A stretch of DNA of 64,000 nucleotides, taken from positions 30,920-94,919 of IMG/VR virus record IMGVR_UViG_3300046652_000008, one strand, 5' to 3'. Origin of the DNA: a virus. Under the pieces are notes generated by a model, which saw nothing but the letters and a program-made list of their open reading frames with translations, did no database searches and was not told where the DNA came from. Both the position numbers and the translations under genes were made by a program. How positions within the stretch are numbered: the stretch's first letter is position 1; the number at the start of each line of letters is the position of its first letter. Positions 19,002-40,273 of this stretch are shown here, one piece after another.

Positions 19002-19433
19002 ATGAATCTTAAACAAGTGAAAGGTCTGATGCAACTGGAGATTGAAAACTCTAGGAAGATGCAGTACGGGTTTGACGATAGAAGCGCAGGATATGCCGAT
19101 GGGCTTGAGGCGACACTTGAGCACGTATTGGAGTTGCTCAATACCATTGACGAATGCGTTATCATCACCAAGAAGGAAGCCAAGCTCATTGCCGCTCTGC
19201 TGGAAATGGCTCACGACCAATTTGCGAACCACGGTTGCAACGACACGCCCCAAGAGGTTTTGGATGCTCCAGGTTTTACCGACGAAGAGAAGTGTACCTT
19301 CCACAACGAGTACGAGATATACAACTCAGGCGACTCCGAGGAGATACCGCACACCGTAGAAGAATATAACCGCTTGCCGGATTACGCCCTCATGGGATAT
19401 TTCGCAGCCAAACTGGAGGGAGAGAGCCGATGA
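19002..19433 (+). CDS. Hypothetical protein
   Basis: 143 aa from ATG 19002 (GGGGG upstream). Acidic and helical, with Cys and His scattered through the middle. Its stop overlaps the kinase start (ATGA). No family recognised. Confidence 0.65.
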   Translation: MNLKQVKGLMQLEIENSRKMQYGFDDRSAGYADGLEATLEHVLELLNTIDECVIITKKEAKLIAALLEMAHDQFANHGCNDTPQEVLDAPGFTDEEKCTFHNEYEIYNSGDSEEIPHTVEEYNRLPDYALMGYFAAKLEGESR

Positions 19434-19885
19434 GAACTTTAATCATTATGAGAGGCATCCCCGGAAGCGGAAAGACCACCCACGCGCGCAGTCTGCAAAA
19501 ATGGCAGTGGAGCGAGGGGAAGAGTTGCACCCTTTCTAGCGCAGATTTCTTTTTTGAAGCTTACGGCGATCACGTCTACAGATTTGACGCTTCGAAGCTG
19601 AAGTATGCCCATGCGGAGTGCATTAACGACTTCGCCGGGCTCGTGCTTGACCCAAGCGTAGATACAATTATCGTGGACAATACGAATACCCAGCTCTGGG
19701 AGTTTGTCAAATACTTGGACTACGCCCATAAGCATGGCAAGTTTCACGTTGACGTGTTTCGCATGGAGGCTCCACTTGACGTATGCCAGAAGCGATGTGT
19801 CCACGGAGTACCGCCCGACAAGATTCAGCAGATGCGGGACCGCTTTGAAGACTTTCCCGGAGAAGAAATAATAAATAATATGTGA
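19430..19885 (+). CDS. P-loop polynucleotide 5'-kinase-like protein
   Basis: 151 aa. IIMRGIPGSGKTTHAR carries a Walker A near residues 8-16; SSADFFFE follows and TIIVDNTNTQ is the second nucleotide-kinase motif. This is the pattern of small AAA_33/polynucleotide-kinase P-loop proteins, such as the 5'-kinase half of T4 Pnk. The matching 3'-phosphatase is a separate gene at 34161, so a Pnk function appears split. The kinase substrate is inferred. Confidence 0.75.
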   Translation: MRTLIIMRGIPGSGKTTHARSLQKWQWSEGKSCTLSSADFFFEAYGDHVYRFDASKLKYAHAECINDFAGLVLDPSVDTIIVDNTNTQLWEFVKYLDYAHKHGKFHVDVFRMEAPLDVCQKRCVHGVPPDKIQQMRDRFEDFPGEEIINNM

Positions 19886-19896
19886 AGGAGAAAAAC

Positions 19897-20145
19897 ATGG
19901 TGACTTTCAGCGTTACGGTAAGAGATCCAAATTCGTGGAACGCCCGAACCGGGATTCACGAGGAACGTAACAGTTGTGGGCATAGGCACAAAACCAGCGA
20001 AGCTGCCAATAAGTGCTGTGCCAAGCTAACCGAGTGGCGTTGCCTTTGCGGTCGCACGGCCAAGGGCTATTGTGGAAGCTGCCACACGCCCAACAACAGC
20101 ACTAGCGCGGCATGGTGGGGCGCGGAAGTTGAAGAGAATATTTAA
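19897..20145 (+). CDS. Small zinc-binding protein
   Basis: 82 aa from ATG 19897 (AAGGAG upstream; GTG 19882 is less likely). Cys/His-rich: SCGHRHKT, KCCAKLTEWRCLCG, YCGSCHTP. Probably one or two zinc sites. No family recognised. Confidence 0.65.
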   Translation: MVTFSVTVRDPNSWNARTGIHEERNSCGHRHKTSEAANKCCAKLTEWRCLCGRTAKGYCGSCHTPNNSTSAAWWGAEVEENI

Positions 20146-20156
20146 TCATTATTCTC

Positions 20157-20185
20157 TTGCTTTCGTGAGAGAATGCGAGTAACCT
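20157..20185 (+). promoter_or_regulatory. Promoter TTGCTT-17-TAACCT with overlapping dyad
   Basis: TTGCTT at 20157-20162 and TAACCT at 20180-20185 with 17 nt between; the following ATTAACAGAT repeats the leader of the 16643 promoter. An ATTCTCT/AGAGAAT inverted repeat (20151-20174) overlaps the -35, as an operator or as the end of the previous unit. Drives parB. Confidence 0.5.
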
Positions 20186-20234
20186 ATTAACAGATCGAGA
20201 CGAGAAGAACGAACGCAACGAAGGAGTGTGAGAA

Positions 20235-21299
20235 ATGGCATCAACATTCGATATGGAAACGAAGCCCGTTAAGCGAGACCTTTGGCTCTTTGACGTTAAC
20301 GAAAACGATGTGATCGTGGATCACTCATTTAACGGACGTTTTCAACAGCGCGACGTGACCGCCCTTGTGGATTCGATTCGCACAGAAGGCCAGAAGGTTC
20401 CCGGCTTAGTGCGCCGCGCCCCAGGGGGCAAGGTGTTTTTGGTGGCTGGTTTTGGACGGTGGGACGCGATCAAGAAGCTGAACGCAGAGAACCCCAAGAA
20501 CCCCATCAAGTTCAAGGCCACCATTGTCGAAGGCAACGACACGGACGCATTTCTCTCAAACGTCACAGAAAACTTCGTGCGGGATAACCCGACCTACATG
20601 GACAAGGCTTTTGTGGTATCTCGCCTGACGGACCAATACGGAAAGGGCGATGCCGAGATTGCCAAGATCCTTAACTTCAAGTCGGTGTCTAGCGTCAGCC
20701 AATATCGCGCCCTGATGCGCCTGTCGGATGAGAACCGCCTAAAGCTCCACAGCGGAGAACTCCAGCTTTCCAATGCGCTTTTGCTGGTCGGGCAGACCGA
20801 AGAGGAGCAGAAGGAAGCCGTACAAGCCGCCACAACACCAGAAGGTAAGGTCGATTCTGCCAAAGTGCGCGAGAAGGTGCGGGAAATCCGAGAGCGCAAG
20901 GCCACGCCCAAGGTGGAAGCGCCCAAGACCGACGATGAGCGAGTTGACGAAGCTATTGCCAAGGGAGAAGTACCGCCCAAGGGCACAGGCCAGAGTGAGC
21001 CGAGCTATCGCCGGGAAGTCCTCAACATGCTCAACGACGGGGAAGAAGAGGCCGCTATTGCCAAAGCAATCAAGGCCGAGCCGACCAAGAAGACTAAGGG
21101 AGAGAAGGCGCTTGAGCGGACGATGCGCGACGTGAAGCGCTTCCATGAGAATCTGTCAAATACTAACCGTGGTGTATTTTTGTTCGCCTCCGCGCTTACT
21201 CGCTACATTTCAGGCGAGTTGTCGGACGAACAGTATTACTCGGCGCTGGAGTTGGCCGCGAACGCGAATGCAACCAAGGCGAAGAAGGTTGGCGTATAA
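20235..21299 (+). CDS. ParB/Spo0J-type protein without ParA
   Basis: 354 aa with AAGGAGTGTGAGAA before ATG. Residues about 20-115 form the ParB N-terminal nuclease-type domain (GRFQQRDVTALVDSIRTEGQ, VFLVAGFGRWDAIKKL, VTENFVRDNPTYMDKAF). A helix-turn-helix-like part follows (GDAEIAKILNFKSVSSVSQYRALMRLS). The C-terminal half is charged and low in complexity. Known roles of ParB proteins are centromere binding and, in phages, segregation or regulation. There is no parA in the window, so regulation or nuclease activity is as likely as partitioning. A palindromic hairpin follows the gene. Confidence 0.85.
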   Translation: MASTFDMETKPVKRDLWLFDVNENDVIVDHSFNGRFQQRDVTALVDSIRTEGQKVPGLVRRAPGGKVFLVAGFGRWDAIKKLNAENPKNPIKFKATIVEGNDTDAFLSNVTENFVRDNPTYMDKAFVVSRLTDQYGKGDAEIAKILNFKSVSSVSQYRALMRLSDENRLKLHSGELQLSNALLLVGQTEEEQKEAVQAATTPEGKVDSAKVREKVREIRERKATPKVEAPKTDDERVDEAIAKGEVPPKGTGQSEPSYRREVLNMLNDGEEEAAIAKAIKAEPTKKTKGEKALERTMRDVKRFHENLSNTNRGVFLFASALTRYISGELSDEQYYSALELAANANATKAKKVGV

Positions 21300-21327
21300 T
21301 CATTCATGAGCTTTCGTAGAGGAGAAG

Positions 21328-21353
21328 CCCCAATACGCGTATCAATTTTGGGG
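21328..21353 (+). promoter_or_regulatory. Hairpin enclosing palindrome ATACGCGTAT after parB
   Basis: CCCCAA (21328-21333) pairs with TTGGGG (21348-21353); the loop holds the perfect 10-bp palindrome ATACGCGTAT (21333-21342). It could be a ParB binding site or an end-of-transcript structure. A TATAAT (21295-21300) overlaps the parB stop codon. Confidence 0.35.
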
Positions 21354-21440
21354 ATATCTGACTACGGCGGCACCGCTACTGACTGACGGCGCTACTGGCA
21401 AGTGAGCGAGATCGCCTGCCTTCATCTCCAAGGAGGCCCC

Positions 21441-21638
21441 GTGCGAGACAGGAAGAAATTCTACATTTACAAGTCCTACCTGGGCCAATGGTACGGTGGA
21501 TGGTGTGTCATACTCCCCGATTCCCTTTGGGGGGAAATCGGGAATACCCATTGGTGCGCCACTTGGCGCGAGGCTATCCGGTTTGTAGATGACCTCATTA
21601 GGAGACGAAAGAACCAGCTTAGGGGAGAAACAATATGA
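21441..21638 (+). CDS. Small hypothetical protein
   Basis: 65 aa from GTG 21441, chosen because AAGGAGG lies at correct spacing. Trp/Tyr-rich (YLGQWYGGWCVI, HWCATWREA), with a basic end. No family recognised. Confidence 0.7.
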   Translation: MRDRKKFYIYKSYLGQWYGGWCVILPDSLWGEIGNTHWCATWREAIRFVDDLIRRRKNQLRGETI

Positions 21639-21802
21639 TTATTTTTCAATGGTATTTTTTGGTTACGGAACTGATTACGATATTGATTTACGTAGCCAAC
21701 CTATTAACCGCTGAGAAGCCCAGCGATGTTGGGAGTAACCTTGTTTACCTGCTGTTAGCTGGCGCGCAACTTGGATTTTTCTGTTATCTTTACTGGAGGT
21801 AG
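21635..21802 (+). CDS. 55-aa membrane miniprotein
   Basis: GGGGAGAAACAAT before ATG 21635, ATGA overlap with the previous gene. Two hydrophobic helices (about 5-23 and 33-52). Function unknown. Confidence 0.6.
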   Translation: MIIFQWYFLVTELITILIYVANLLTAEKPSDVGSNLVYLLLAGAQLGFFCYLYWR

Positions 21803-21807
21803 ACCGC

Positions 21808-22137
21808 ATGAAACATCGCGTAATATACACATTTACGGTAGTAGGTGGAGATCCTAGAAAAGATCGGATGCGCTCTCGCGTATGGGGCTACACGTTCGAT
21901 AGGGGCCAAGCCGAGCACATCATCGAGACAAATAGTACAGACCTAGCCGAAAATGGGTATTACGGCTATGCTGTTCTTGGTGAAGTTGGAGAAGGACCGG
22001 GTGCAATCCCAACCGAACTACAATGGTATAGGATGAGCTTTTGGGAGAGAACGAGCGGGACATTCCGCACTTTCCTTGGCGCTGAAAAAATCAGCAAGCC
22101 AGACATTTACAAAAAAGTCTTTTTTGGAGGTATCTAG
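21808..22137 (+). CDS. Hypothetical protein
   Basis: 109 aa with TGGAGGTAGACCGC before ATG. Probable alpha/beta fold with many aromatics. No family recognised. Confidence 0.7.
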   Translation: MKHRVIYTFTVVGGDPRKDRMRSRVWGYTFDRGQAEHIIETNSTDLAENGYYGYAVLGEVGEGPGAIPTELQWYRMSFWERTSGTFRTFLGAEKISKPDIYKKVFFGGI

Positions 22138-22138
22138 T

Positions 22139-22357
22139 ATGGCATGTAAGATTCACGGTTGCAGCGAGACGAACATGAGGCGGCGCGAAGTGGTGTGTTT
22201 TAAGCACTGGGCCAAACTGCCCAAGGAGCTTAGGTCTATCATCCGCGAAGGCGCAGGGCATGACCAGACGCTCCGCGCCAAGCCTAGCGATGAATGGCTT
22301 CGCAAGGCCAATGAAGCGGTAAGGCCGAGAACGCAGGTTCAGGTTAATCCCGAGTAG
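22139..22357 (+). CDS. Small zinc-finger-like protein
   Basis: 72 aa from ATG 22139 (GGAGGTATCTAGT upstream). The N-terminus has C-x3-H-x-C spacing (CKIHGC) and VCFKHWAK, suggesting a C/H zinc site. The rest is basic and helical. This CKIHGC...CFKHW layout is common in phage-encoded small proteins of unknown role. Confidence 0.65.
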   Translation: MACKIHGCSETNMRRREVVCFKHWAKLPKELRSIIREGAGHDQTLRAKPSDEWLRKANEAVRPRTQVQVNPE

Positions 22358-22393
22358 GAGAGCGTTGCCGAGAAACATAGGACGTGGTGATAT

Positions 22394-22846
22394 ATGACGC
22401 ATGAAGAAGTTGTAAGACTAGCAGCACAGGCACGAGAGTTATCCCAGAACATCCAGGCGGTAGCCGACTCGCACGCTATTGAACTCAAGAAGGCGCAAGC
22501 CGCCCACAAGAAGATCACAGCAGAGATCACAGAAGAAACGGCTTTTGACGCAGCCGAACTAACGATGGCAAAGGCAGAGATCCTCAGCTATCACTTATCA
22601 GTTAGCGGAGCACATGAGCCAATCCCATACGTCTCTTTTCGAGGGGCCGGGAAGCTGGCTTGTATTGGTGTAGACATGGACGCACTACTGGAAGACTGTC
22701 GTAAAAATCCAGAACTCACACGATTCATAACGCTTGACGAGACCATAGTTAACTCTAGACTGGAATCAATGGGGATGGCTCATGGCCTACCTGAATCTAT
22801 AATCATCGACAAAGCGCCCGAGACGGTAGTTATAGCCAAGAAATGA
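22394..22846 (+). CDS. Hypothetical protein with N-terminal coiled coil
   Basis: 150 aa. Residues 1-55 are an Ala/Glu/Lys-rich helix; the remainder is alpha/beta. Overall size and layout recall phage host-nuclease-inhibitor (Gam-like) proteins, but no defining motif is visible, so function is not assigned. Confidence 0.65.
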   Translation: MTHEEVVRLAAQARELSQNIQAVADSHAIELKKAQAAHKKITAEITEETAFDAAELTMAKAEILSYHLSVSGAHEPIPYVSFRGAGKLACIGVDMDALLEDCRKNPELTRFITLDETIVNSRLESMGMAHGLPESIIIDKAPETVVIAKK

Positions 22847-22852
22847 GATATT

Positions 22853-23047
22853 ATGGACAACGAGAAAACACCCGTATGTTGGCCAACCGACAGATGTGAG
22901 GAGTGGGGGCCGGATTGGACGTGCTGGAATTGCAAGACCGTCAATTACGGAATCCGCGAGAAGTGTAGATCATGTGGGTACGATTCCAATACCGGAGAGT
23001 TCCCTTGGTATAACCCGCTGCCGCCATATGAAGGGCTAGGGGAATGA
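22853..23047 (+). CDS. RanBP2-type zinc-finger miniprotein
   Basis: 64 aa. The block WTCWNCKTVNYGIREKCRSC has the RanBP2 finger layout W-x-C-x2-C-x3-N-x6-C-x2-C. In other proteins such fingers bind single-stranded RNA or protein partners. No good Shine-Dalgarno sits before ATG 22853. Its partner in this phage is unknown. Confidence 0.75.
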   Translation: MDNEKTPVCWPTDRCEEWGPDWTCWNCKTVNYGIREKCRSCGYDSNTGEFPWYNPLPPYEGLGE

Positions 23048-23337
23048 CGCAAGATGAGTGTGATTCCATTAACGCTTTCCAGAATTGCGGAGTAGTCCAC
23101 CCGTTAACCTGCGTAACCCACTCGCAGCTAGAGCCGCTGGAGGCCCGTCAAGACGGGTTTCTGCATTGCCTGCATTGTGATTATCGTCAATTCACGCCGG
23201 GAGGATATTTAGCTGACTGGCATTGGAAGAAGGTCTTTGGGGCAGGGACGATGGCGAAGATAATGGAGCATAACCTTAACGATTATCACGAACGAACAGG
23301 AAGGCCGATAGGCCCAAAGGAGAACGAGCATGTTTAG
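23044..23337 (+). CDS. Hypothetical protein with Cys/His motif
   Basis: 97 aa. CLHCDYRQF in the middle plus earlier Cys/His residues (NCGVVHPLTCVTH) suggest a zinc-stabilised fold. No family recognised. Confidence 0.65.
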   Translation: MTQDECDSINAFQNCGVVHPLTCVTHSQLEPLEARQDGFLHCLHCDYRQFTPGGYLADWHWKKVFGAGTMAKIMEHNLNDYHERTGRPIGPKENEHV

Positions 23338-23545
23338 TTGCCAACAGAAACGAGACATTGCAGACGCAGTGCAGAAGGTGTTACGCGCAACGAACCATCC
23401 AGAACTGCCAGAAACGGAAATCCAATTCACGCTTTGCGTAGATGGTGCAGCGCCTTGGAGCTACGCCAGAATCCTTAACAATGGCGCGGCACAAACCCCA
23501 GGAATCAATCCGTGGAACGAACGACAGGACAACCATGAAACTTGA
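23330..23545 (+). CDS. Small hypothetical protein
   Basis: 71 aa with AAGGAGAACGAGC before ATG. No family recognised. Overlaps both neighbours slightly. Confidence 0.65.
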   Translation: MFSCQQKRDIADAVQKVLRATNHPELPETEIQFTLCVDGAAPWSYARILNNGAAQTPGINPWNERQDNHET

Positions 23546-23711
23546 ATTTGTGCGAAAATACCCAGGGTTCAAGCTAGCCCTATGGTTTGGGAAATACTAT
23601 CGCCATTGCGCTGGCTTCGATGGGTACCTATATCGCGGAGAATGGTGCGTTTACGCTGGGACCCACTCTCATCCTTGGCATAGGCCAAAGTTCTATTTTT
23701 TCTTGAACTAA
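23535..23711 (+). CDS. Small aromatic-rich protein
   Basis: 58 aa from ATG 23535 (AGGAC upstream). Tyr/Trp/His-rich (WFGKYYRHCAGFDGYLYRGEW). No family recognised. Confidence 0.6.
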   Translation: MKLEFVRKYPGFKLALWFGKYYRHCAGFDGYLYRGEWCVYAGTHSHPWHRPKFYFFLN

Positions 23712-23715
23712 CCCA

Positions 23716-24424: not shown

Positions 24425-24439
24425 AGGAGCGAGACAACT

Positions 24440-24863: not shown

Positions 24864-25652
24864 ATGGACGACCAAACAGCACAAGATTACGGAATTCCGA
24901 CCGTCTCGGACTTTGAGACAAGCCCACAACTGAACGAGCTTTTCGCGGCACTTGCCAAGGCTCAAGGCGAGATGGACTCAGCCAAGAAGTCGAGCGATAA
25001 CCCATTTTTCAAAAGCAAGTACGCTGACCTAGCGGAGGTCTGGGAAGCTATTCGAGGGCCACTCTCCAAGAACGGGCTATGCCTTACGCAGTACCCGCTA
25101 GGGCCAGAAGGCGTAATTAGCATCTTGGGCCATTCATCGGGCCAATTCATCCGCAGCGTCATTCACTTGCCAGCCGACAAGAAAGGCCAGATGGACGCCC
25201 AAACTATCGGGTCTATGATTACCTATGCGCGCAGGTATAGTGCATCGGCCATCGCTGGAATCGCGCAGGACGACGACGATGGGAATGCTGCCAGCGGGAA
25301 GCCATCACCAGCCCGTCAGCTACCAGCGCCGCGAGTAGCTAACCCCGCCCCTGTGGCCGCAGTAGAGACCCCAGAGCCGCCAGAAGCGCCAGACACGCCA
25401 GATCAGGCGGAACGTAAGAGACTTCGCGCTATTGTAGTTAAGACCATCGGAAATACGAATCTGATGAAGTTCTGGCTTGGGTATTTCGGAAAGAACCAAC
25501 AATCAGAACTGCCAACAGACGTGGCCGTGTATCTTCCGGGGTATCGTTACCTAGTCGAACAGGCCGACCACGTTAAGAAGGAATTAGCTGAGAAGGTTCC
25601 GGCAGACAAACTAGGGGCCGAAGTCGCCAAGCTGCAAGAGGATTTGAAGTAA
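24864..25652 (+). CDS. ERF-family single-strand annealing protein
   Basis: 262 aa with AGAGAGGATCAAT before ATG. Residues about 20-135 match the ERF recombinase core: LNELFAALAKAQGEM, FFKSKYADLAEVWEAIRGPL, GLCLTQYPL, SMITYARRYSASAIAGI. A Pro/Ala-rich linker and a C-terminal domain follow. Known role: annealing complementary single strands during phage recombination. The RecB-like nuclease at 26160 is the expected exonuclease partner. A strong terminator follows this gene. Confidence 0.9.
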   Translation: MDDQTAQDYGIPTVSDFETSPQLNELFAALAKAQGEMDSAKKSSDNPFFKSKYADLAEVWEAIRGPLSKNGLCLTQYPLGPEGVISILGHSSGQFIRSVIHLPADKKGQMDAQTIGSMITYARRYSASAIAGIAQDDDDGNAASGKPSPARQLPAPRVANPAPVAAVETPEPPEAPDTPDQAERKRLRAIVVKTIGNTNLMKFWLGYFGKNQQSELPTDVAVYLPGYRYLVEQADHVKKELAEKVPADKLGAEVAKLQEDLK

Positions 25653-25680
25653 GCGCACGAGCCTTTCGAGTAACGGCGCT

Positions 25681-25714
25681 TAGGGGATAGCAACGGCTGT
25701 CCCCTATTTTTTTG
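25681..25714 (+). terminator. Intrinsic terminator after ERF gene
   Basis: About 11 bp pair (TAGGGGATAGC with GGCTGTCCCCTA, including one G-U pair) around an AAC loop, followed directly by a run of seven T. It is the clearest intrinsic terminator in the window and abuts a promoter. Confidence 0.85.
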
Positions 25715-25715
25715 A

Positions 25716-25724
25716 TGCTATAAT
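25716..25724 (+). promoter_or_regulatory. Extended -10 promoter TG-C-TATAAT
   Basis: TGCTATAAT directly after the terminator T-run; AAGGAG and ATG 25745 follow. No obvious -35, as expected for an extended -10 promoter. Starts the replication operon. Confidence 0.65.
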
Positions 25725-25744
25725 GAATCACAAGGAGAAACAAT

Positions 25745-25861
25745 ATGACGATACATCTAGGGCTTCAAGATTTGGTTGTATTTTTGGTTGGTGGGCTCTT
25801 CGGCAGAATTGCTTCCGCCATGCTAGTGTACGGATGGGAATCATGGAAGTATGGCAAATGA
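25745..25861 (+). CDS. 38-aa membrane miniprotein
   Basis: AAGGAG before ATG 25745. One hydrophobic helix (LQDLVVFLVGGLFGRIASAMLVY). First gene behind the new promoter; stop overlaps the next start. Confidence 0.6.
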   Translation: MTIHLGLQDLVVFLVGGLFGRIASAMLVYGWESWKYGK

Positions 25862-26163
25862 CACGCGAAGATAAACTACTTGTCCACTTGGAATTGGTTA
25901 TTTTTAGAGACCTGCCGGAAGGTACGTCCGTAACTGGTAAAGACATGGAATACCGGATAGAGAAAGCCACCCAGTTGCAAAAGATCAGGGCATATTATAG
26001 GTCAAGATATGCTATCCCGCTATTACTGCCAGATGAGCGGGAGCCCATACCTTCTACCACTGGCTTAGATATGAACAACGCAAATGTGTTCATATTGTCA
26101 GATAAGGTGGCGTGGCTTGAGCATAAGCTACGATTACTGGGAGATCGGGTAGAATCTTTATGA
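25858..26163 (+). CDS. Hypothetical protein
   Basis: 101 aa from ATG 25858 (ATGA overlap). Mostly helical. Its stop overlaps the nuclease start. No family recognised. Confidence 0.65.
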   Translation: MTREDKLLVHLELVIFRDLPEGTSVTGKDMEYRIEKATQLQKIRAYYRSRYAIPLLLPDEREPIPSTTGLDMNNANVFILSDKVAWLEHKLRLLGDRVESL

Positions 26164-26753
26164 TACACTTTGACGAAGACACGCACACATACACCAACGA
26201 CGATGGAGAAGTTATCTCATCAGTCACTCAGATTCTCCGTACTATGGGCTTTGGTGGATTCTACAAAGACACGGGAGCCAAAGAGCGCGGAACCGAGATC
26301 CACAACGCCATTGAGTTAGAGCTAAAAACCCCAGGTGGATATGAAGGCGACAACAAGTACATCCAATCCTGCATTAATCGGCTGATTGAGTTTCGGCTTG
26401 CTGGAAACCTCAAGGTCATTAAGTCAGAGGATCTGGTATACTCTGTTAGTTTTAGATATGCAGGGAGATATGACGTTCTATTTGAAGACAGAAATGAAGA
26501 CCGTTTCCTGTGCGACTTTAAGACAGGGACGAGCGTAGCGTCAGAGACTAAACTACAGCTTGCCGCCTACGACATAGCTTCTGGTGCTACTATATACCGT
26601 AAGCCCTATAAGCGCATGGCGCTCCACCTAACCGACAAGAGATGTAAGCCCGTAAACTATGACGTTATGGGTGACTACGATGTTTGGAAATCGCTTGTGA
26701 AGAAGTATCATGAGAATGTAAGTCAATATAGTTCCAGTTTGGAAAGGAATTGA
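26160..26753 (+). CDS. PD-(D/E)XK (RecB/Cas4-like) nuclease
   Basis: 197 aa. The GRYDVLFED...FLCDFKTG block (about residues 97-121) carries the Asp and the D-x-K of the PD-(D/E)XK motif; TKLQLAAYDIAS is the RecB-type QxxxY motif. An early AKERGTEIHNAIE helix adds the conserved His. Known relatives act as 5'-3' exonucleases that pair with annealing proteins; the ERF protein just upstream is the likely partner, although a terminator and promoter separate the two. Confidence 0.85.
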   Translation: MIHFDEDTHTYTNDDGEVISSVTQILRTMGFGGFYKDTGAKERGTEIHNAIELELKTPGGYEGDNKYIQSCINRLIEFRLAGNLKVIKSEDLVYSVSFRYAGRYDVLFEDRNEDRFLCDFKTGTSVASETKLQLAAYDIASGATIYRKPYKRMALHLTDKRCKPVNYDVMGDYDVWKSLVKKYHENVSQYSSSLERN

Positions 26754-26757
26754 CATC

Positions 26758-27054
26758 ATGAAATGCCCCAAATGCAAAGAATGCGATGTTTGCGTAGAGT
26801 TGGAATTGACTGGCGGCTGTAGCGGGCATGATAATGACGAGTACTGCTACTGTGATGCGCAAGAGGCTGCCCTGGTCTTACGATGCGCTGGCAGACAATT
26901 GCGTAAAGGCCAAAAGCCATGTGGGTGGAAGCATCGTCCATACGATTTACAGGACTCTGGCTCTATCGAGCGGTTTATTTGTAGTATACTAAAGCCAGAA
27001 GACTGCGAGGTTATACTTAATATGAATCACAAAAAAGAGAGGTGGGAACGATGA
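26758..27054 (+). CDS. Cys-rich putative zinc protein
   Basis: 98 aa with GGAAAGGAATTGACATC before ATG. CPKCKECDVC at the N-terminus plus several further cysteines (GGCSGH, YCYCDA, LRCAG, KPCGW). Likely binds two or more zinc ions. No family recognised. Confidence 0.65.
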   Translation: MKCPKCKECDVCVELELTGGCSGHDNDEYCYCDAQEAALVLRCAGRQLRKGQKPCGWKHRPYDLQDSGSIERFICSILKPEDCEVILNMNHKKERWER

Positions 27055-31178: not shown

Positions 31179-32628
31179 CCAAGAGAAGCTGGAACTAGAA
31201 ATAGTTGCCTACTGTTTCACCCACCATTCCTCAGTGGGAACGGTATCCCGCATTATTGGGACACGACACTTTACAAATAAGTGCTATAAATATATCTTTG
31301 ACTGTACGGTGGATTCCTATAACCTGGAAGATAAGGCCAGCCGAGCAACTATAGTTCAGCGAGCCGTCAAGCGTAGTAAGTTAAATTGGGACGCTACCCC
31401 GATACTGAATGAGATTGCAGCCGTAGATACACGAGACTACGATGTTGACTCAGCACTCAAGACAATGAACGATTCGTTTCTCTCTAGGCAGCTTGTAAAG
31501 CTAGCTGAAGATATCAGCAGCCAAGTGAGTGGTGGCGACTCGTCCATCTCGGTGATAGATAGTGCGCGGCATGGCCTAGATAATATAGCCGATGGTATAG
31601 TAACGGACGATTGCTACCATACGCTTGGGGATATCATCGAAGGCTCAGAGCAGAAACACGCAAACATCTATGATGGAACCCATGGCACTTCCGGCATACC
31701 GTCTCCTATCGCAGCTATTGACCTAATCACTGGAAAGTTCCGCAAGGGCAGATTCTATGTAATTGCGGCCAGACCATCCACCGGGAAGTCTGCGCTAGTT
31801 ACACAGATTGCATATAAAGCCGCAAGTCTCGGTTTCAAGGTGCTGATGTTCAGCTTTGAGATGGACTCCGACTCCATATGGCGCAGGATTCTTTCCGCCG
31901 AGACGGGAATCATGGCTTGGGATATGGAAACCGGATTCCTATCAGAAGAAGAAAAAGCACAAGCAACCGAATGGCTGGATACGCACAGAGATATACCACT
32001 GTATATCGTCCCGCGTAAAACCGGGAAGACCATGGCATCTATGAATGCCGTGATTCGCGGATTTACGACTAAATATGGAGCGCCTGATCTTGTGATTGTG
32101 GACTATATCCAGCTAGTTAAGGCGGGAGTTAGAACCACCGGAAGATACGAAGAGATGACCTATGTCTCTAATGCTTTAATGGATATTCCCTATGAGCATT
32201 CCACTGCGCTAATAGCTTTAAGCCAGATGAGCCGAGCGATGGAGAAACGCGACTATTCCAGGCCGCAACTTTCTGATTTGCGCGAAACCGGGGCGATTGA
32301 GCAGGATTCTGACTGCGTTAGCTTTCTATGGCGTCCAGACATGCACCAGAACAGCAAGGATGGAGGAGGAGGCCGGAAGGACCAGGAGGATTATCCACCA
32401 GGGTATACCGAGTTGATCTTCGAGAAAAACCGCCAAGGACGAACTGGATGTGTTAAACTAAAGTTCGATGGGGCGCATACGAAGTTTACCGAGCTACCAG
32501 AAGGAGAATACGATGGCACTTCCGAGAGATCAACGACTAACGCCGCTCCGAGAGACCCTTCAGGAACTAATCGGGCAAAAACTGGTAAAGGCAAACAGAC
32601 ATCCCAGACTTCCTTTAACCCTGTATAA
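31165..32628 (+). CDS. dnaB: DnaB-type replicative helicase
   Basis: 487 aa from GTG 31165. N-terminal helical domain, then a RecA-like core: Walker A ARPSTGKSA (about residue 208), FSFEMDS, Walker B LVIVDYIQL (about 310), ALSQMSRAMEKR, and a C-terminal ETGAIEQDSDCVSFLWR region. This is the standard DnaB arrangement for a hexameric 5'-3' helicase at the fork. The C-terminal tail (about 40 residues) is Ser/Thr-rich and overlaps the following gene by 116 nt. It stands directly after the primase gene. Confidence 0.9.
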   Translation: MEKTSQEKLELEIVAYCFTHHSSVGTVSRIIGTRHFTNKCYKYIFDCTVDSYNLEDKASRATIVQRAVKRSKLNWDATPILNEIAAVDTRDYDVDSALKTMNDSFLSRQLVKLAEDISSQVSGGDSSISVIDSARHGLDNIADGIVTDDCYHTLGDIIEGSEQKHANIYDGTHGTSGIPSPIAAIDLITGKFRKGRFYVIAARPSTGKSALVTQIAYKAASLGFKVLMFSFEMDSDSIWRRILSAETGIMAWDMETGFLSEEEKAQATEWLDTHRDIPLYIVPRKTGKTMASMNAVIRGFTTKYGAPDLVIVDYIQLVKAGVRTTGRYEEMTYVSNALMDIPYEHSTALIALSQMSRAMEKRDYSRPQLSDLRETGAIEQDSDCVSFLWRPDMHQNSKDGGGGRKDQEDYPPGYTELIFEKNRQGRTGCVKLKFDGAHTKFTELPEGEYDGTSERSTTNAAPRDPSGTNRAKTGKGKQTSQTSFNPV

Positions 32629-33739
32629 TTACACAAATGCCGCGTATGGTATAAATCCAGCCGATTGGCCGCTTGAACTTTCGCAGGCGCGTGGCCTTGT
32701 CTTAGACGACAATGGAAAAGTTATTTCTCGCGGATTTGGCAAGTTCTGGGAGCTAACCCCATCTACTGTCCAGAAGATAGAAGAAAACAAAGAGAAGGCG
32801 TATACCATCAGCGAAAAAATGGATGGAGTGCTCATCTGCGTATTCGGTTATCGCGGAGAGATTATCGTCCATACTCGCGGATCTTGGGGTAACGAGTTTA
32901 TTGACGAGGCCATAACCCTCTTTGAAGACAAGTACCCGGAGTATTGGCATAATCTATTAGACGACCCCCATGAGTATAATGAAGATGGACATGGATATGG
33001 TATAGACTATGGACGCACCGACTGCTTTGAGCTAATCTCGCCAGTCAGCCGGATTGTCGTAGACTACATAGGGAGGCGTGGTCTTTCATGGCTCCAGTCT
33101 TTCTGGATCTATAACCAGTCGGGAGAACTTAACGGAGCGGCGCTGCATCCGCTGCGCGACATGAGCAACCATTTGTATCTATGCGATGCTGACGAGGTAG
33201 CCGGATGGACCCTATCTGAACATACCCCGAACCTCACGCTAGATAGTTTTACCTCCAAGGCCAGCAACGACCAGGAGGGATACGTTATCTACCTTCCATG
33301 GTGCAACGAGTATTACAAGTTCAAGTTTGCAGACTACAAAGCTAAGCACCGAGCGGTATTTAATACGTCCGATATGTCGGTTTGGGATACATGGCGCTAT
33401 GGCGATAATATAGCCCAAGACTTGATCGACTGTACGGCCAAGATTGACATCAAGCTTTCCGGCTGGATATCTGAACAGGTCGGTTGGCTTTCGCTGCGCC
33501 GTGCTAACTTGCTAAATGAGGCTAACTATGTATACAAAAAATGCATCCTCAACGGTGAATCAGCACGAGCAGACTTCGCGCGTAGGGTCTTAGCCGAAGC
33601 TAAAAGACGCACGCCATGCATCAAGAGCATGGTCTTTGCCCTGTATGACGGCAAGGAACAAGAGGCTGAGTCTATCGCAGCCAAGGCGCTGAAACCGGAT
33701 AAGACTGCGTTCTACCGTCAGGAGGATATAACCGCATGA
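32513..33739 (+). CDS. RNA ligase 1-like (T4 Rnl1 family)
   Basis: 408 aa from ATG 32513 (AAGGAGAATACG upstream), lying 116 nt inside the dnaB 3' end in another frame. SEKMDGVLI is the KxDG adenylation motif (Lys near 101); DCFELISP, DQEGYVIYLP and YYKFKFADYKAKH are the later nucleotidyltransferase motifs. Known reaction: ATP-dependent joining of 3'-OH and 5'-phosphate RNA ends, in T4 to repair cut tRNA. The nearby phosphatase (34161), kinase (19430) and second ligase (39194) complete a repair set. Confidence 0.85.
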   Translation: MALPRDQRLTPLRETLQELIGQKLVKANRHPRLPLTLYNYTNAAYGINPADWPLELSQARGLVLDDNGKVISRGFGKFWELTPSTVQKIEENKEKAYTISEKMDGVLICVFGYRGEIIVHTRGSWGNEFIDEAITLFEDKYPEYWHNLLDDPHEYNEDGHGYGIDYGRTDCFELISPVSRIVVDYIGRRGLSWLQSFWIYNQSGELNGAALHPLRDMSNHLYLCDADEVAGWTLSEHTPNLTLDSFTSKASNDQEGYVIYLPWCNEYYKFKFADYKAKHRAVFNTSDMSVWDTWRYGDNIAQDLIDCTAKIDIKLSGWISEQVGWLSLRRANLLNEANYVYKKCILNGESARADFARRVLAEAKRRTPCIKSMVFALYDGKEQEAESIAAKALKPDKTAFYRQEDITA

Positions 33740-34112: not shown

Positions 34113-34113
34113 G

Positions 34114-34160: not shown

Positions 34161-34589
34161 ATGAAACCAAGAGCCATCATCTGCGATCTTGACGGAACGC
34201 TAGCGCACAGCAACGGGAAACGATCTTTCTACGACGAGATGAAGTGTTATGGAGATAGCATTGACTCCGTGGTTTCTTACGTTCTCTCATTGCTGGCGGA
34301 AGACGGAATCACCATCTTATTCACAAGTGGGCGCAAGGAAAAATCCAGGGGCGAGACCACTCGATGGCTCGATGATTATGCGCCAGAATCGGTGGTGGGT
34401 AGCTGGAGACTATTTATGCGAAAAGATGACGACAATAGAAAAGATTGCATCGTCAAGGAAGAAATCTACCGCAACGAGATCGAGCCTAACTACCGTGTGG
34501 TGCTGGTGCTTGACGACCGTGATTCGGTTTGTGCGAAATGGCGCGAACTTGGGCTGAAGTGCTTTCAGGTGGCCCCAGGAGACTTCTAA
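34161..34589 (+). CDS. HAD-family polynucleotide 3'-phosphatase-like protein
   Basis: 142 aa with GAAGGAACCAACC before ATG. CDLDGTLA is the DxDGT motif, ILFTSGRK the second HAD motif, and LVLDDRDSVCAKW the acidic motif IV. This is the size and layout of the 3'-phosphatase domain of T4 Pnk and related enzymes, which removes 3' or 2',3'-cyclic phosphate from RNA ends. The kinase half is separate (19430). It sits behind its own promoter and a palindrome, 0.4 kb downstream of RNA ligase 1. Confidence 0.8.
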   Translation: MKPRAIICDLDGTLAHSNGKRSFYDEMKCYGDSIDSVVSYVLSLLAEDGITILFTSGRKEKSRGETTRWLDDYAPESVVGSWRLFMRKDDDNRKDCIVKEEIYRNEIEPNYRVVLVLDDRDSVCAKWRELGLKCFQVAPGDF

Positions 34590-34670
34590 TAGGATGGGTT
34601 GTGCTAATCGCTTGCATTGTGTTCTTTCTGTCCTTTCTGGGGCTTGGTTGTGATTAGCGGAGGAGCTAAT

Positions 34671-35471: not shown

Positions 35472-35635
35472 AGTGGTTTATCAGAACCCCCACGGGTGAG
35501 CTTATCCCATACAAGCTGTCCGAGATACAGGAATTGATCTTAGCGGAAAAGGCTAAAAGTGAACAAAAGCACGTGCGAGAGGCTGACGGAGTGCGAATTA
35601 CGCCAGCACGAGAAGACATTCCTCCTGGTTCGTGA
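35435..35635 (+). CDS. Small hypothetical protein
   Basis: 66 aa with GGGGAGGTGGCCATACA before ATG. Basic and hydrophilic. Overlaps its neighbours on both sides. No family recognised. Confidence 0.6.
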   Translation: MDNRRKPTGEQLKWFIRTPTGELIPYKLSEIQELILAEKAKSEQKHVREADGVRITPAREDIPPGS

Positions 35636-35882
35636 TGGGAATCAGATACTATTCATTGAGAGCGGGAAGAAGGCCATTGCGATACTCAATGACAACTTCT
35701 GGAAGGTGCGCCGACAAGAGGCGCTAGAGAGAGACAATTATACATGCCAACAGTGCGGGGCGCAAAGGGATCTGGACGTACATCATCAGCTACCGAGGGG
35801 CAAGGGCGGAACACACAACCTCAAGAATTTAGTGACTTTGTGCAGGAGATGCCACGATGCCCAACACTCAAAGCGCATATAA
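35559..35882 (+). CDS. HNH endonuclease
   Basis: 107 aa from GTG 35559, overlapping the previous gene by 77 nt. ALERDNYTCQQCGAQ, DVHHQLPRGKGG, NLVTLCRRCHDAQH give the HNH fold with two CxxC zinc ligands (His-His of the DVHH motif, then Asn and His). Known range: phage packaging-linked, homing or restriction nucleases. Alone, next to a RusA-type resolvase, it could be a free-standing homing or recombination nuclease. Confidence 0.9.
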   Translation: MNKSTCERLTECELRQHEKTFLLVRDGNQILFIESGKKAIAILNDNFWKVRRQEALERDNYTCQQCGAQRDLDVHHQLPRGKGGTHNLKNLVTLCRRCHDAQHSKRI

Positions 35883-36247
35883 CACTTAAAGGCATTTCCC
35901 CGTCGAAGAAAAACCGCTACCTCCCGATCATTCGCGGAGGCCACGCCACAATGATTAAGGACAAGAAACTACAGGGAGAACTTGACTTGCTGGAGTTGCA
36001 AATACCGTTATATTCCAGAACACTGAAGCTACAGCATCCCCACATCGTAATGCAATTCTACGTGGACAAAACAAACGGGACTAGCCGAGACCGTGACAAT
36101 ATGGCACAGATGACGATGGATCTGCTCGTTCATGCTGGAGTACTGTATGATGATCGCATTAAGCGAAACAACGGCTTTTTCTTGATGCCCCCTGCTGTCA
36201 TCGGAACAGAAAACAAGACAGAAGTTTACATTTTTGGAGACAATTAG
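35849..36247 (+). CDS. RusA-like Holliday-junction resolvase
   Basis: About 132 aa; the start is uncertain (ATG 35849 touches the AGGAG; a GTG nine nt earlier is possible). KGISPSKKNRY near the N-terminus and RDRDNMAQMTMDLLVHAGVLYDD are the RusA signature, with paired acidic residues for metal binding. Known reaction: cutting four-way junctions made by recombination. Overlaps the HNH gene by 34 nt. Confidence 0.75.
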   Translation: MPRCPTLKAHITLKGISPSKKNRYLPIIRGGHATMIKDKKLQGELDLLELQIPLYSRTLKLQHPHIVMQFYVDKTNGTSRDRDNMAQMTMDLLVHAGVLYDDRIKRNNGFFLMPPAVIGTENKTEVYIFGDN

Positions 36248-37717
36248 ATGTATTATTCACAACTCAAAGAGAGCATTAAAAAAGAGTTAGAGTCTGGAGG
36301 GTTGTCTCCGTTTGATGTTGGGCGTAGGAACCTAGCCAAGATATGGAAGATTACACCATACAAAGCGAGGACCATCTTGGAAGACCTACGGCTGGAGTAT
36401 TCGCAAACCCATCGCGGAGATCCACAGAAACCCAAGAGCGGCCAGCCGCTCAAGGAAGACTCCCCCTTCGAGGTCAAGGGCGAAGTCAACGGCGTTAAGA
36501 TGTTTACCGGCATTCTTCGTGATTCTGGCAAGCCACTCGGCATAGATGCCGTGAACATCAGTAAGCTAGTTGAGTCATACAATAATTTCCCGAATGGGAA
36601 ACAAAAGCTATCCGAGGAGCGCATACAAACTTCAGACAAATTAAGTCTTCACTTGCCGTCTACTCGTATCCATACGCTAGAAGACCTAATAGCGTTCTTT
36701 GAAGTAGATATGTCCGTCTGGGAAGTATCCAGGTTCGTGTGTAACAAGTGGGAGGTCGGCGCAAAAAATAAAGATGGTGAAATCGAAGTTTCTCCCCTGT
36801 ATCAAGTTAAGGCCGACTTCAAGCCAAAAGATGCCCAACAAGCAGATGCGATCAAGAAGGAAATTGAGGACCTGGTCGCCACATCCGAAGCTAGATTCAG
36901 GAGTGCCCCCCTCATCATCAAAGACACGGCCCTCAAACTCAGGACCGAAAACCTTGTTGAAATCTGTATTCCCGACCTCCACTTTAATAGACTCGTGTGG
37001 AATGGAGAAACTGGACACGGAAACTGGGATAGCAAGATCGCCCGATCCGTATTTGACAGAGCTACGTCGGATCTATTCCAGCAAATAAGTTTCTATAAGC
37101 CAGAAAAGATTGTATTTGTTATTGGGAACGATCTACTAAACGCAGACAACATCCAGGCAACCACGACTCGCGGAACCCCCCAGGTAAACGATACACGATA
37201 CCACAAAGCATTTGAAGATGTACGCAACATGAAGATAGCGGCTATCGAGAAGTTCCGTACACTCTGCCCAGTGGAAGTGATTACGCTCCCTGGAAATCAC
37301 GATAGGCTAGCAAGTTGGCATTTGGGCGACTCCATCAAGATGCTGTATTGCAAGACTCAGGATGTGACCGTAGATACATCGGCACTCCCGCGCAAGTATA
37401 TGAAGTGGGGAGACTGCGGACTATGCTGGACCCACGGCGACGAGATTAAGCGCCCAGACCTACCGCTCACGTTTGCCTCAGAACAGCGCGAGATGTGGGG
37501 ATCTACCAAGTACAACGAGATCCACTTAGGGCATCTACACCAGACCCAAGTTCAGGAGTTTCACGGAGTGCGCGTAAGAATTCTTCCAGTGCTGTGTAAA
37601 GTCAACGAGTGGGAGAACTCAAAGGGGTATACTGGGAATATCCGATGCGCTCAGGCGTATGTCTGGAACAAAACGAATGGGTTGAAGGCAATTTTGCACT
37701 ACAACGACCCAGACTAA
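36248..37717 (+). CDS. Calcineurin-like metallophosphoesterase with N-terminal extension
   Basis: 489 aa with GGAGACAATTAG before ATG. The first 60 residues look like a helix-turn-helix (GRRNLAKIWKITPYKARTILEDLRLEY). The catalytic part has IPDLHFNR, VIGNDLLNAD, LPGNHDR, THGDEI and LGHLH, the five metallophosphoesterase motifs. Relatives include phage-encoded exonuclease-like (SbcD-type) enzymes and phosphodiesterases. The substrate is unknown. Confidence 0.8.
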   Translation: MYYSQLKESIKKELESGGLSPFDVGRRNLAKIWKITPYKARTILEDLRLEYSQTHRGDPQKPKSGQPLKEDSPFEVKGEVNGVKMFTGILRDSGKPLGIDAVNISKLVESYNNFPNGKQKLSEERIQTSDKLSLHLPSTRIHTLEDLIAFFEVDMSVWEVSRFVCNKWEVGAKNKDGEIEVSPLYQVKADFKPKDAQQADAIKKEIEDLVATSEARFRSAPLIIKDTALKLRTENLVEICIPDLHFNRLVWNGETGHGNWDSKIARSVFDRATSDLFQQISFYKPEKIVFVIGNDLLNADNIQATTTRGTPQVNDTRYHKAFEDVRNMKIAAIEKFRTLCPVEVITLPGNHDRLASWHLGDSIKMLYCKTQDVTVDTSALPRKYMKWGDCGLCWTHGDEIKRPDLPLTFASEQREMWGSTKYNEIHLGHLHQTQVQEFHGVRVRILPVLCKVNEWENSKGYTGNIRCAQAYVWNKTNGLKAILHYNDPD

Positions 37718-37719
37718 GC

Positions 37720-37725
37720 TATAAT
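37720..37725 (+). promoter_or_regulatory. -10 promoter candidate TATAAT
   Basis: TATAAT just after the phosphoesterase stop, preceded by AGC, 22 nt before ATG 37748 with GAAGGGCGG between. No good -35. Confidence 0.45.
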
Positions 37726-37747
37726 CAATAACGAAGGGCGGTACAAC

Positions 37748-38584
37748 ATGGGTAAAGAAACCGGAATCTCGTGGACGCATAGCGTAAACCCAGACGGTAC
37801 GACAACTCCGGGAAGTAGCTGGAACCCCCTGCGCGGTTGTTCGCGGGTATCCACAGAGTGCGTCAACTGCTATGCCGAGCGGCTAATGGCTCGTGGGCTT
37901 CCCGGCCTCAAGTCACCAACCACCGGAGAGGACTTTGCCATCATGAAGAACGGAGATCCGCATTGGACGGGCAAGGTAGAGCTTATTGAATCAATGTTGG
38001 ATCTTCCAATAAAATGGAAGAAACCGCGTAAGATATTCGTTAACAGCATAAGTGACTTGTTCCACGAATCACTGCCGGATGAGGTAATAGACCGCGTATT
38101 TAACGTGATGGCGCATTGCCCGCAGCATACGTTTATTGTATTAACTAAACGCCATGAGCGCATGAAGCAGCACCTGAATAAATACTGGAAAGATCCACTC
38201 CCCAATTGCTGGATTGGCGTATCGGCGGGCAACCAGGAAATGTATAATCTGCGCGTCCCGTATCTGCTGGATACTCCAGCCGATGTAAGTTTCGTCTCAT
38301 GCGAACCGTTATTAGGCCCTATTGACATAACGCAAGTTAATGGATACCCGAATTGGCTTATACTTGGGGGAGAGAGTGGACCCGGAGCTAGACCGTGCGA
38401 CATCAACTGGATAGATGACATCTATATTGATTGCCTATTCCATAACGTGCCCACGTTCATTAAGCAATTGGGGGCTTACCCGACTTCATGCGGAGTACAA
38501 GTCAACCTGAAAGACCGCAAGGGCGGTAACATCGAAGAATTCCCATCAAGTTTGAGGGTTAGGGAATTCCCAAAGGAGAAATAA
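37748..38584 (+). CDS. Phage Gp37/Gp68 (DUF5131) family protein
   Basis: 278 aa with GAAGGGCGGTACAAC before ATG. ISWTHSVNPDG...SWNPLRGCSRVSTECVNCYAERLMARG is the N-terminal block of this widespread phage and bacterial family; cysteines C-x7-C-x2-C resemble a radical-SAM-like cluster. Other family blocks are VNSISDLFHE, TKRHERM, PNCWIGVSAGNQ, SCEPLLGPI, LILGGESGPGARP. The reaction is not established. It is the third protein in this window with a possible 4Fe-4S/SAM-type motif. Confidence 0.85.
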   Translation: MGKETGISWTHSVNPDGTTTPGSSWNPLRGCSRVSTECVNCYAERLMARGLPGLKSPTTGEDFAIMKNGDPHWTGKVELIESMLDLPIKWKKPRKIFVNSISDLFHESLPDEVIDRVFNVMAHCPQHTFIVLTKRHERMKQHLNKYWKDPLPNCWIGVSAGNQEMYNLRVPYLLDTPADVSFVSCEPLLGPIDITQVNGYPNWLILGGESGPGARPCDINWIDDIYIDCLFHNVPTFIKQLGAYPTSCGVQVNLKDRKGGNIEEFPSSLRVREFPKEK

Positions 38585-38586
38585 CT

Positions 38587-38886
38587 ATGACAGTTAGGCA
38601 AGTTGTTAAATTTTCAGAAGCATTCGAAGACGAATATGGCCAATTCGATAGGATCAAAGAAGACAAGCCATCGAGCCGAAAAGACCTATGTGCCTTCATC
38701 AAGTTAGACCATCTAGTACCACCAGCGTACAAATGGGAGGATATTGTTACAGGGTCCGAGCATGATGAGTTTTTCCTATCCCCAGACATGGATAAGTTTG
38801 CGAAAGTAGCAACAGAAACAGACGTTCTATATCTGGTAAGGTGCGGAGTAATGTTCTCCGAAGATGGCATGAGCATGTTTTCGTGA
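38587..38886 (+). CDS. Hypothetical protein
   Basis: 99 aa with AAAGGAGAAATAACT before ATG. Acidic. No family recognised. Confidence 0.65.
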   Translation: MTVRQVVKFSEAFEDEYGQFDRIKEDKPSSRKDLCAFIKLDHLVPPAYKWEDIVTGSEHDEFFLSPDMDKFAKVATETDVLYLVRCGVMFSEDGMSMFS

Positions 38887-38893
38887 GGCCATT

Positions 38894-39181
38894 ATGATAT
38901 ATCCAGTCGGAACGAAGTTTAGCCTATGGGTTCGAGAGTACGATATTGACGTGCGGGAATGGGTATGGGCGAAGACCCCAGTAACAGGAGTGCTTGAAGT
39001 AATTACAGAAGAATCCGTACATCCCAAAAATTGGGTTCCAGGTGGGCACAGGGCTGAAATCGGCGAGACGGTTATCCGAGTTAACTACGAAACGGGGAAA
39101 CCGTCCACACAATACGATATCCTGTTAAAGATGGACGCCAACCAAGAGCAATGGTTGACGGACGAAGAACTACCAGCATAA
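38894..39181 (+). CDS. Hypothetical protein
   Basis: 95 aa, beta-rich, with an early KFSLWVREYDIDVREWVW. Could be a small beta-barrel. No family recognised. Confidence 0.65.
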   Translation: MIYPVGTKFSLWVREYDIDVREWVWAKTPVTGVLEVITEESVHPKNWVPGGHRAEIGETVIRVNYETGKPSTQYDILLKMDANQEQWLTDEELPA

Positions 39182-39193
39182 GGAGAAACGACC

Positions 39194-40273
39194 ATGGCAT
39201 ATACCCACAAAGCCGAAGTATTCAAAATTAAAGAATTACACCCGCACCCAAACGCCGACAAGTTAGAGATTGTCAAGATTTTCGATGGCGAATGCGCTGT
39301 AAAGATTGGCGATTTCCACGTTGGCGACTTGGCTGTGTTCGTACAGCCCGACTCTTGCTTACCGGACATCCCAGAATACAATTGGCTCAAGGGCAAACTA
39401 CGCATCAGGGCGCAAAAGCTACGTGGGTATATTTCGGCTGGACTCGTCTTAAAGGCTCCTGAAGGGGCTAAAGAGGGTGACGACGTAGCCGAGCAGCTAG
39501 GCATTACGCATTACGATCCACCAGAGCCAGGACAATACCAATCAGGCCCTAAGAAGAACCGCCGCTTTGTGCCACGCTCTATGGCTCCGCAAGCCAGCGT
39601 GAAGGTCTATGACGTGGAGCCTTGGTTCCGTTACGCAGACTGCATCCCAGAAGGGACGCCAGTAGTAGCAGAGGAAAAGATCCACGGATGCAATACTCGC
39701 GTACTTTGCGAAAACGGCAAGATATTCGTAGGTAGCCGCCAATATTGGTTAGGCTATCGCTACGTGTCCAAGTTTAAGAAGTTGGTAAATAAGTATACCC
39801 ACGGTTTACTTTTTGCCGATAATGTAAACGATTCCGATTGGTGGGAGACGTTAGACGCTAATCCTAAGATCCTAGCGGTAGTAGCGCGGCATCCTGGATT
39901 AGTCTTCTTTATGGAGATGTACGGAGCGGTACAGGACTTGCGCTATGGCGCTATAGGGAAACAACGGTGGCTGGCCATCTTCGACATATACAATACAAAG
40001 ACCGGATCATTTATGACTCCAGCCACCAGGAATTTTCTGCTAGAATTAGAGGGTCTATTTGAGTACATGGTCCCAGTGGTGAGACTTTTCGACTACCATA
40101 AGGATCAAATCAAAGATATGGTTAGCGGAAAGTCTTTTGTGGCGACAGCGCCGGAAGGCCATATTCGAGAGGGAATCGTTATCAAACCGTTCTATAATGA
40201 GATATACGATTCACGACTAGGACGAGTAATCGTTAAAGCCGTATCTCCAGAATATCTATCAAGGGGGAAGTGA
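39194..40273 (+). CDS. Second RNA ligase, DraRnl/Rnl5-like
   Basis: 359 aa with AAGGAGAAACGACC before ATG. The N-terminal about 90 residues form an OB-like domain (HPHPNADKLEI, VKIGDFHVGDLAVF). VVAEEKIHGCNTRV is the KxHGxN adenylation motif (Lys near 160); REGIVIKP and GRVIVKAVS are motifs IV and V. This pattern is that of the Deinococcus-type Rnl5/DraRnl ligases, which seal RNA (often 3'-OH) nicks. It is distinct from the Rnl1-like ligase at 32513. Together with the kinase and phosphatase it points to RNA repair. Confidence 0.8.
   Translation: MAYTHKAEVFKIKELHPHPNADKLEIVKIFDGECAVKIGDFHVGDLAVFVQPDSCLPDIPEYNWLKGKLRIRAQKLRGYISAGLVLKAPEGAKEGDDVAEQLGITHYDPPEPGQYQSGPKKNRRFVPRSMAPQASVKVYDVEPWFRYADCIPEGTPVVAEEKIHGCNTRVLCENGKIFVGSRQYWLGYRYVSKFKKLVNKYTHGLLFADNVNDSDWWETLDANPKILAVVARHPGLVFFMEMYGAVQDLRYGAIGKQRWLAIFDIYNTKTGSFMTPATRNFLLELEGLFEYMVPVVRLFDYHKDQIKDMVSGKSFVATAPEGHIREGIVIKPFYNEIYDSRLGRVIVKAVSPEYLSRGK

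Follow-up and report, generated by a model that had tools for sequence, protein, structure and literature searches.

How would a phage that carries, scattered over a single region, a kinase, a phosphatase and two RNA ligases of different classes use them, and do the four add up to one RNA repair system? This question is raised by the virus record IMGVR_UViG_3300046652_000008, a phage of 94,919 bases (94.9 kb), and we addressed it in a 64,000-nucleotide stretch spanning bases 30,920–94,919 of that record, hereafter the window. An earlier note, made from the letters of this DNA, had read the four genes as a dispersed set able to heal and seal cut RNA. This is still the best reading: the ligases fall into RNA ligase families, the phosphatase is of the type found in T4 polynucleotide kinase (Pnk), and members of the kinase family recur next to RNA ligases in other phages. 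We consider it probable that the four genes constitute a heal-and-seal kit with which the phage undoes cuts inflicted by defences on tRNA or other structured RNA, on the basis of their families, domain layouts and catalytic residues, and of a conserved linkage between kinase and ligase genes. The features concerned are the following.

19430–19885, + strand: P-loop polynucleotide-kinase-like protein, 151 amino acids (aa); phrog_2071 / AAA_33; proposed 5'-OH end kinase
32501–32506, + strand: Shine-Dalgarno-like sequence AAGGAG before the Rnl1-type ligase
32513–33739, + strand: Rnl1-type ATP-dependent RNA ligase, 408 aa; PF09511, phrog_562
34161–34589, + strand: stand-alone PNKP-type HAD 3'-phosphatase, 142 aa; PF25109, phrog_505
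39194–40273, + strand: DraRnl/NgrRnl-type (Rnl5) RNA ligase, 359 aa; PF21189 + PF09414, phrog_968

The open reading frames (ORFs) themselves were borne out as the earlier note had drawn them, all on the + strand with ribosome-binding sites and strong family matches. Purine-rich Shine-Dalgarno-like sites also precede 19430, 34161 and 39194, so that every one of the four ATGs has one, and the AAGGAG at 32501 supports the ATG at 32513 even though this ORF shares 116 nt with the end of dnaB. Judged by their scores, the family matches of all four proteins are far beyond chance and none is marginal.

Two ligases and two putative end-healing proteins

Both ligases can be assigned to RNA ligase families by profile and by residues. 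The first matches PF09511 (4e-14, above the cut-off) and phrog_562 (1e-30, residues 20–368 of 377), and it has the nucleophile Lys102 (EKMDG), motif III (FELISP), motif IV (E255-G) and motif V (K269-F-K271); K102, E255, K269 and K271 are invariant in 32 Rnl1-type sequences. A profile built from 32 relatives matches T4 Rnl1 (2c5u) at 6.6e-30 over T4 residues 35–369, which includes the C-terminal domain, although that part aligns less well. The second ligase displays an N-terminal OB domain (PF21189, 4.3e-16; residues ~8–86)—the mark of the DraRnl/NgrRnl clade—and a nucleotidyltransferase domain (PF09414, 5.5e-21; residues ~156–350), both above the cut-off, together with a match to phrog_968 (1.6e-34). 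Its nucleophile is Lys162 (EKIHGCN), followed by motif IV (R325-E-G) and motif V (K331 and K348), and a profile that includes two phage relatives aligns at 8e-55 with the whole of NgrRnl (5cot), an enzyme that the title of this PDB entry describes as a nick-sealing ligase. Clean nicks in duplex RNA would be a chemically plausible second class of substrate for the window protein. Single-protein patterns retrieved no close relatives of either ligase in IMG/VR. The earlier note had seen in the two ligase classes and the separate kinase and phosphatase a sign of a broader or different repair target. We rejected the notion that two ligases are unusual on the strength of the literature, since T4 has two, Rnl1 and Rnl2, and phages mix such repair parts freely (PMC3400036, PMC7824862).

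The end-healing proteins had been described as a split Pnk, which turns out to be a misreading. The kinase and the HAD phosphatase are separate genes 14 kb apart, with no bifunctional polypeptide. The HAD matches PF25109 at 2.8e-45 (154 bits, where 27.6 would suffice), the C-terminal half of phrog_505 at 3.7e-48, and the phosphatase domain of T4 Pnk in the PDB at 1.2e-24 and 1.2e-23. Its catalytic set is complete—DLDGT at residue 9 (D9, D11), S56-G-R58, K99 and D118-D119—and is kept in two other stand-alone copies. It is by sequence a Pnk-type C-terminal domain standing alone, a phosphatase of the T4 Pnk type. The kinase, which matches AAA_33 (4e-11), scores better against phrog_2071 (1e-23) than against phrog_505 (9e-11), and for this reason we assign it to a different, normally stand-alone family, named only 'ATPase', rather than regarding it as the lost half of a T4-type Pnk.

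Several lines of evidence nevertheless bring this kinase close to polynucleotide kinases. First, it has a Walker A motif, GIPGSGKT, at residue 9 and an aspartate, Asp39, that lines up with the general base of T4 Pnk (D35), and G12, G14, K15 and D39 are invariant across 36 homologues. Second, when a profile from 36 members of the family was compared with the PDB, T4 Pnk came first (1.9e-7), followed by CthPnkp (1e-6) and, lower down, by PSTK, Pnkp1 (8.7e-5) and mammalian PNKP. Third, structure prediction, which the earlier note had proposed as a check, was applied to the kinase and to the Rnl1-type ligase. The AlphaFold (AF2) model of the kinase (predicted local distance difference test score, pLDDT, 93) folds best like PSTK, the tRNA(Sec) kinase, with a template modelling (TM) score of 0.80, and also like T4 Pnk (TM 0.69), and the three PDB entries that best match the model of the Rnl1-type ligase (mean pLDDT 80, but poor over 201–235) are all of T4 Rnl1. 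The kinase may also resemble N4BP2. N4BP2 has been described with a polynucleotide kinase domain (PMC1947948).

Kinase–ligase linkage in other phages

An indication that the kinase acts with the ligases comes from gene neighbourhoods in other phages. We scanned IMG/VR by the kinase family alone, blind to ligases, and then searched the resulting 46 contigs whole. Rnl1 was found above the Pfam cut-off in 26 of these 46 contigs. In 23 of them the two genes share a strand and are no more than 3 kb apart, where random placement would give 2.5. Another PF09414 ligase is present in 15/46 contigs (within 3 kb in 5, against 0.9 expected), so that at least one RNA ligase, Rnl1 or other PF09414, accompanies the kinase in 36/46 and both do in 5. 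Near-copies inflate these counts, the 80 kinase loci representing 39 clusters at 70% identity, 15 of which have Rnl1 within 3 kb. The commonest neighbours within 2.5 kb of the kinase are calcineurin-like phosphoesterases (35/80 loci) and cREC domains (15/80), for the latter of which a role in processing cyclic phosphates has been proposed (PMC7824862). CCA-adding enzymes are present in 8/50 records and adjoin the kinase in two of them (G015 and G020), which is a pointer to tRNA. One contig, L061, has the kinase, one small ORF, the HAD and Rnl1 in a row. The linkage between kinase and Rnl1 is strong across the kinase family; it is looser in the branch to which the window kinase itself belongs.

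Members of the phrog_2071 family, recorded as 'ATPase' or 'hypothetical protein', keep company with RNA ligases, calcineurin-like phosphoesterases and cREC domains, and are therefore probably the 5'-healing kinases of many phage repair modules. This is the concrete gain of the present analysis, a likely function for a widespread phage P-loop family.

Two loci met in this survey deserve mention in their own right. In a metagenomic phage (L095, record G015, positions 3070–10839), an Rnl1, a CCA-adding enzyme, the kinase, an ATP-dependent DNA ligase and an Rnl5-type ligase lie within 8 kb, and this cluster is a better model locus for the repair kit than the window. In contig L058 (5153–5809), there is a calcineurin-like phosphoesterase of ~218 aa that belongs to the family recurring at kinase loci, and it is a candidate for an alternative 3'-end phosphatase that may replace the HAD.

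A proposed repair route and its competitors

From these families we infer the substrates of the kit, the order of its steps and tRNA (or RNA) as its target. A metal-independent nuclease would leave a 2',3'-cyclic or 3'-phosphate and a 5'-OH; the HAD phosphatase would clear the 3' end, the P-loop kinase would phosphorylate the 5' end, and the Rnl1-type ligase would join the ends of what would be an anticodon-loop-like break. The Rnl5-type ligase would seal 3'-OH/5'-PO4 nicks held in duplex, with or without prior healing. The precedent is T4, in which Pnk and Rnl1 repair tRNA-Lys cut by PrrC (PMC3400036, PMC12409363), an enzyme that leaves a 2',3'-cyclic phosphate and a 5'-OH (PMC3400036). The four tRNA genes that the phage has outside the window also speak for this reading. 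The earlier note had claimed that all steps are covered. This requires that the HAD, like T4 Pnk, also open 2',3'-cyclic phosphates, since no KptA/Tpt1, no cREC and no member of the kinase-neighbouring calcineurin-like family, and hence no separate cyclic-phosphate enzyme, was found in the phage's own genome; a CCA-adding enzyme was likewise not found there. More tentatively, and at rather long odds, the kit may have two arms, with kinase, HAD and Rnl1 acting on 'dirty' loop cuts of the PrrC type and the Rnl5-type ligase acting alone on 'clean' stem nicks. This idea was suggested by analogy, because the nick made in the anticodon stem by AriB of the PARIS system, between positions 40 and 41, leaves a 3'-OH and, by a two-metal mechanism, a 5'-phosphate (PMC12409363), and because NgrRnl seals nicks. 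If true, defences that nick tRNA stems would be directly opposed by a phage ligase able to seal the nicks.

Several observations weigh against a single kit of four. The genes are dispersed across 21 kb, and the kinase is 12.6 kb from Rnl1, so the linkage argument is borrowed from other phages. In addition, the kinase branch of the window is divergent and sparsely sampled, about half of its members have a ligase, and in only a few (L036, L061 and L016) is the ligase close by; around the kinase of ParKuw1, the annotation shows no RNA ligase within 6 kb. In T4 Pnk, R38 is the acceptor-site arginine and D85 its partner aspartate. The catalytic motifs are intact in the ligases, in the HAD, and in the Walker A and Asp of the kinase, but the kinase lacks equivalents of these two T4 residues and has F42 (35/36) and N84 (36/36) there instead, the match of F42 to R38 being approximate because the R38 column falls in an alignment gap. 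Since F42 and N84 are nearly invariant at or near these positions, a fair claim from sequence and model is that the protein probably works like a polynucleotide kinase, not that it is a member of the T4 Pnk family. Finally, stand-alone HAD homologues are mostly found without ligases, Rnl1 being present in 5/29 records when the window and L061 are counted. We therefore rejected the idea that a HAD standing alone marks RNA repair in general, the majority of such contigs having no ligase. The window HAD pairs in a tree with a fused Pnk domain (99/89), although this tree is poorly resolved with long branches, and the sequence closest to it (50% identity) is a fused Pnk near Rnl1. The HAD is therefore the least certain of the four members as far as RNA is concerned.

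Taken together, these points could mean that RNA is repaired by the ligases alone, or by the Rnl1 ligase alone, with the kinase and the HAD serving nucleotide or DNA-end metabolism and their co-presence in a 95-kb genome being coincidental. The PFKFB and APS kinases, which likewise match the fold of the kinase model, and the stand-alone HAD homologues, which usually lack the kinase as well as ligases, would fit such an arrangement. We nonetheless consider it unlikely. The kinase is linked to Rnl1 across many phages, polynucleotide kinases lead its profile matches, and L061 brings kinase, HAD and Rnl1 together. Moreover, once the window and L061 are set aside, 27 stand-alone-HAD contigs remain, many of them fragments; the two with the kinase (G068 and G073) both have Rnl1, compared with 1/25 of the others.

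It is much less probable that the kit serves the phage's own RNAs, through maturation of its tRNAs or another RNA, instead of repairing defence damage. There are tRNA genes to be served. None lies within the 64-kb window, but the search elsewhere in the genome that the earlier note had called for found four at record positions 24952–26872: Trp(CCA), His(GTG), Asn(GTT) and an ambiguous Ile/Tyr with an aberrant anticodon loop. The CCA-adding enzymes near the kinase in some relatives would also fit. However, no intron-containing tRNA was found in the record, and the T4 precedent is one of defence repair (PMC3400036, PMC12409363). The ambiguous tRNA-like gene is an observation of separate interest: located at record positions 26708–26784 (L003 6808–6884, − strand) next to tRNA-Asn, it could not be assigned by ARAGORN, and it may be a degenerate tRNA, an unusual tRNA or a decoy.

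Least probable of all, and hardly to be expected, is that the Rnl1-type protein acts mainly in virion assembly like T4 gp63 in tail-fibre attachment, a role evoked by the name of phrog_562, 'RNA ligase and tail fiber protein attachment catalyst', which derives from gp63, whereas the gene is flanked by dnaB and the HAD within a block of replication and metabolism genes and not placed among tail genes, the protein retains every catalytic residue, and its relatives adjoin kinases, phosphoesterases and cREC genes.

The window contains other genes worth recording. A radical SAM protein of 205 aa (18376–18993) is encoded close to the kinase, and upstream of the Rnl5-type ligase there is a DUF5131/phrog_2045 protein (37748–38584) that has a Cys-rich motif. 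The large subunit of ribonucleotide reductase (41247–44159, 970 aa), with weak matches to Ribonuc_red_lgC, RNR_Alpha and a class II insertion domain, is interrupted by an apparent intein with a LAGLIDADG domain (residues 514–599). An IS605 OrfB/TnpB-type protein (44802–46010; OrfB_IS605 2.6e-30, Cas12f1-like TNB domain) resides within the phage, and a DUF7192 protein (12471–13397; 6.4e-31) adjoins an AAA_5 ATPase (11154–12428).

Comparison with known repair systems

Comparison of the proposed kit with known systems shows similarities and differences. T4, with Pnk (PseT), Rnl1 and Rnl2, has the same four predicted activities—5'-kinase, 3'-phosphatase, Rnl1 and a second ligase—and both the HAD and, over almost its full length, Rnl1 are homologous. 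The differences are that kinase and phosphatase are separate genes in the window, that the kinase is from another family without R38/D85 equivalents, and that the second ligase is of the Rnl5 type with an N-terminal OB domain, whereas that of T4 is Rnl2. With DraRnl and NgrRnl (Rnl5), the second ligase shares the OB and nucleotidyltransferase domains and, for NgrRnl, a full-length profile alignment. However, single-sequence similarity is low, motif I is KIHG instead of the KLDG of NgrRnl, and nick sealing by the window protein is a prediction.

Among cultured phages, the kinase family adjoins an Rnl1-type ligase in Vibrio phage F88 and Aeromonas phage 2L372X, and one small ORF separates the two in Raoultella Ro1 and Vibrio Thalassa; kinase and ligase are also neighbours in Pseudomonas phage Pyxpy02, where the ligase is annotated only as 'RNA ligase', with no class. 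The Vibrio, Aeromonas and Raoultella modules differ in that their ligases are short (~300 aa) and that the phosphoesterase nearby is calcineurin-like or unspecified, not a HAD, while the window genes are dispersed. Tunturiibacter phage Tunturi_3 (Acidobacteriota) has an Rnl1-like ligase (25% identity), an Rnl5-like ligase (28%) and a related helicase (32%) in one region, and three tRNA genes are reported for it (PMC11924767). Unlike the window, it has no member of the kinase family among the proteins compared and no PF25109 HAD in its whole record. We rejected its 'kinase' ORF59 and its ORF72, which has no Pfam family, as counterparts of the window kinase and HAD, there being no similarity, and also the KptA name on its ORF90, which corresponds only to a sub-threshold match. 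The best cultured-phage matches of the terminase and helicase of our phage are Tunturiibacter phages, which hints at an Acidobacteriota host.

Jumbo-phage RNA repair sets are comparable mixtures of ATP-grasp ligases, kinases, phosphatases and tRNAs, but their PNKP-type HAD domains are 'usually fused' to a kinase (PMC7824862), whereas that of the window stands alone in a 95-kb genome, in which no cREC, CCA-adding or KptA enzyme was found. Cutting of tRNA is now viewed as a common effector of anti-phage defence, to which phage RNA repair is a direct counter, and the presence of an Rnl5-type second ligase makes the resealing by phages of clean stem nicks such as those of PARIS a testable idea. 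The repair set in this phage is real and sensible, yet it is a reshuffle of parts known from other viruses, not a new type of system.

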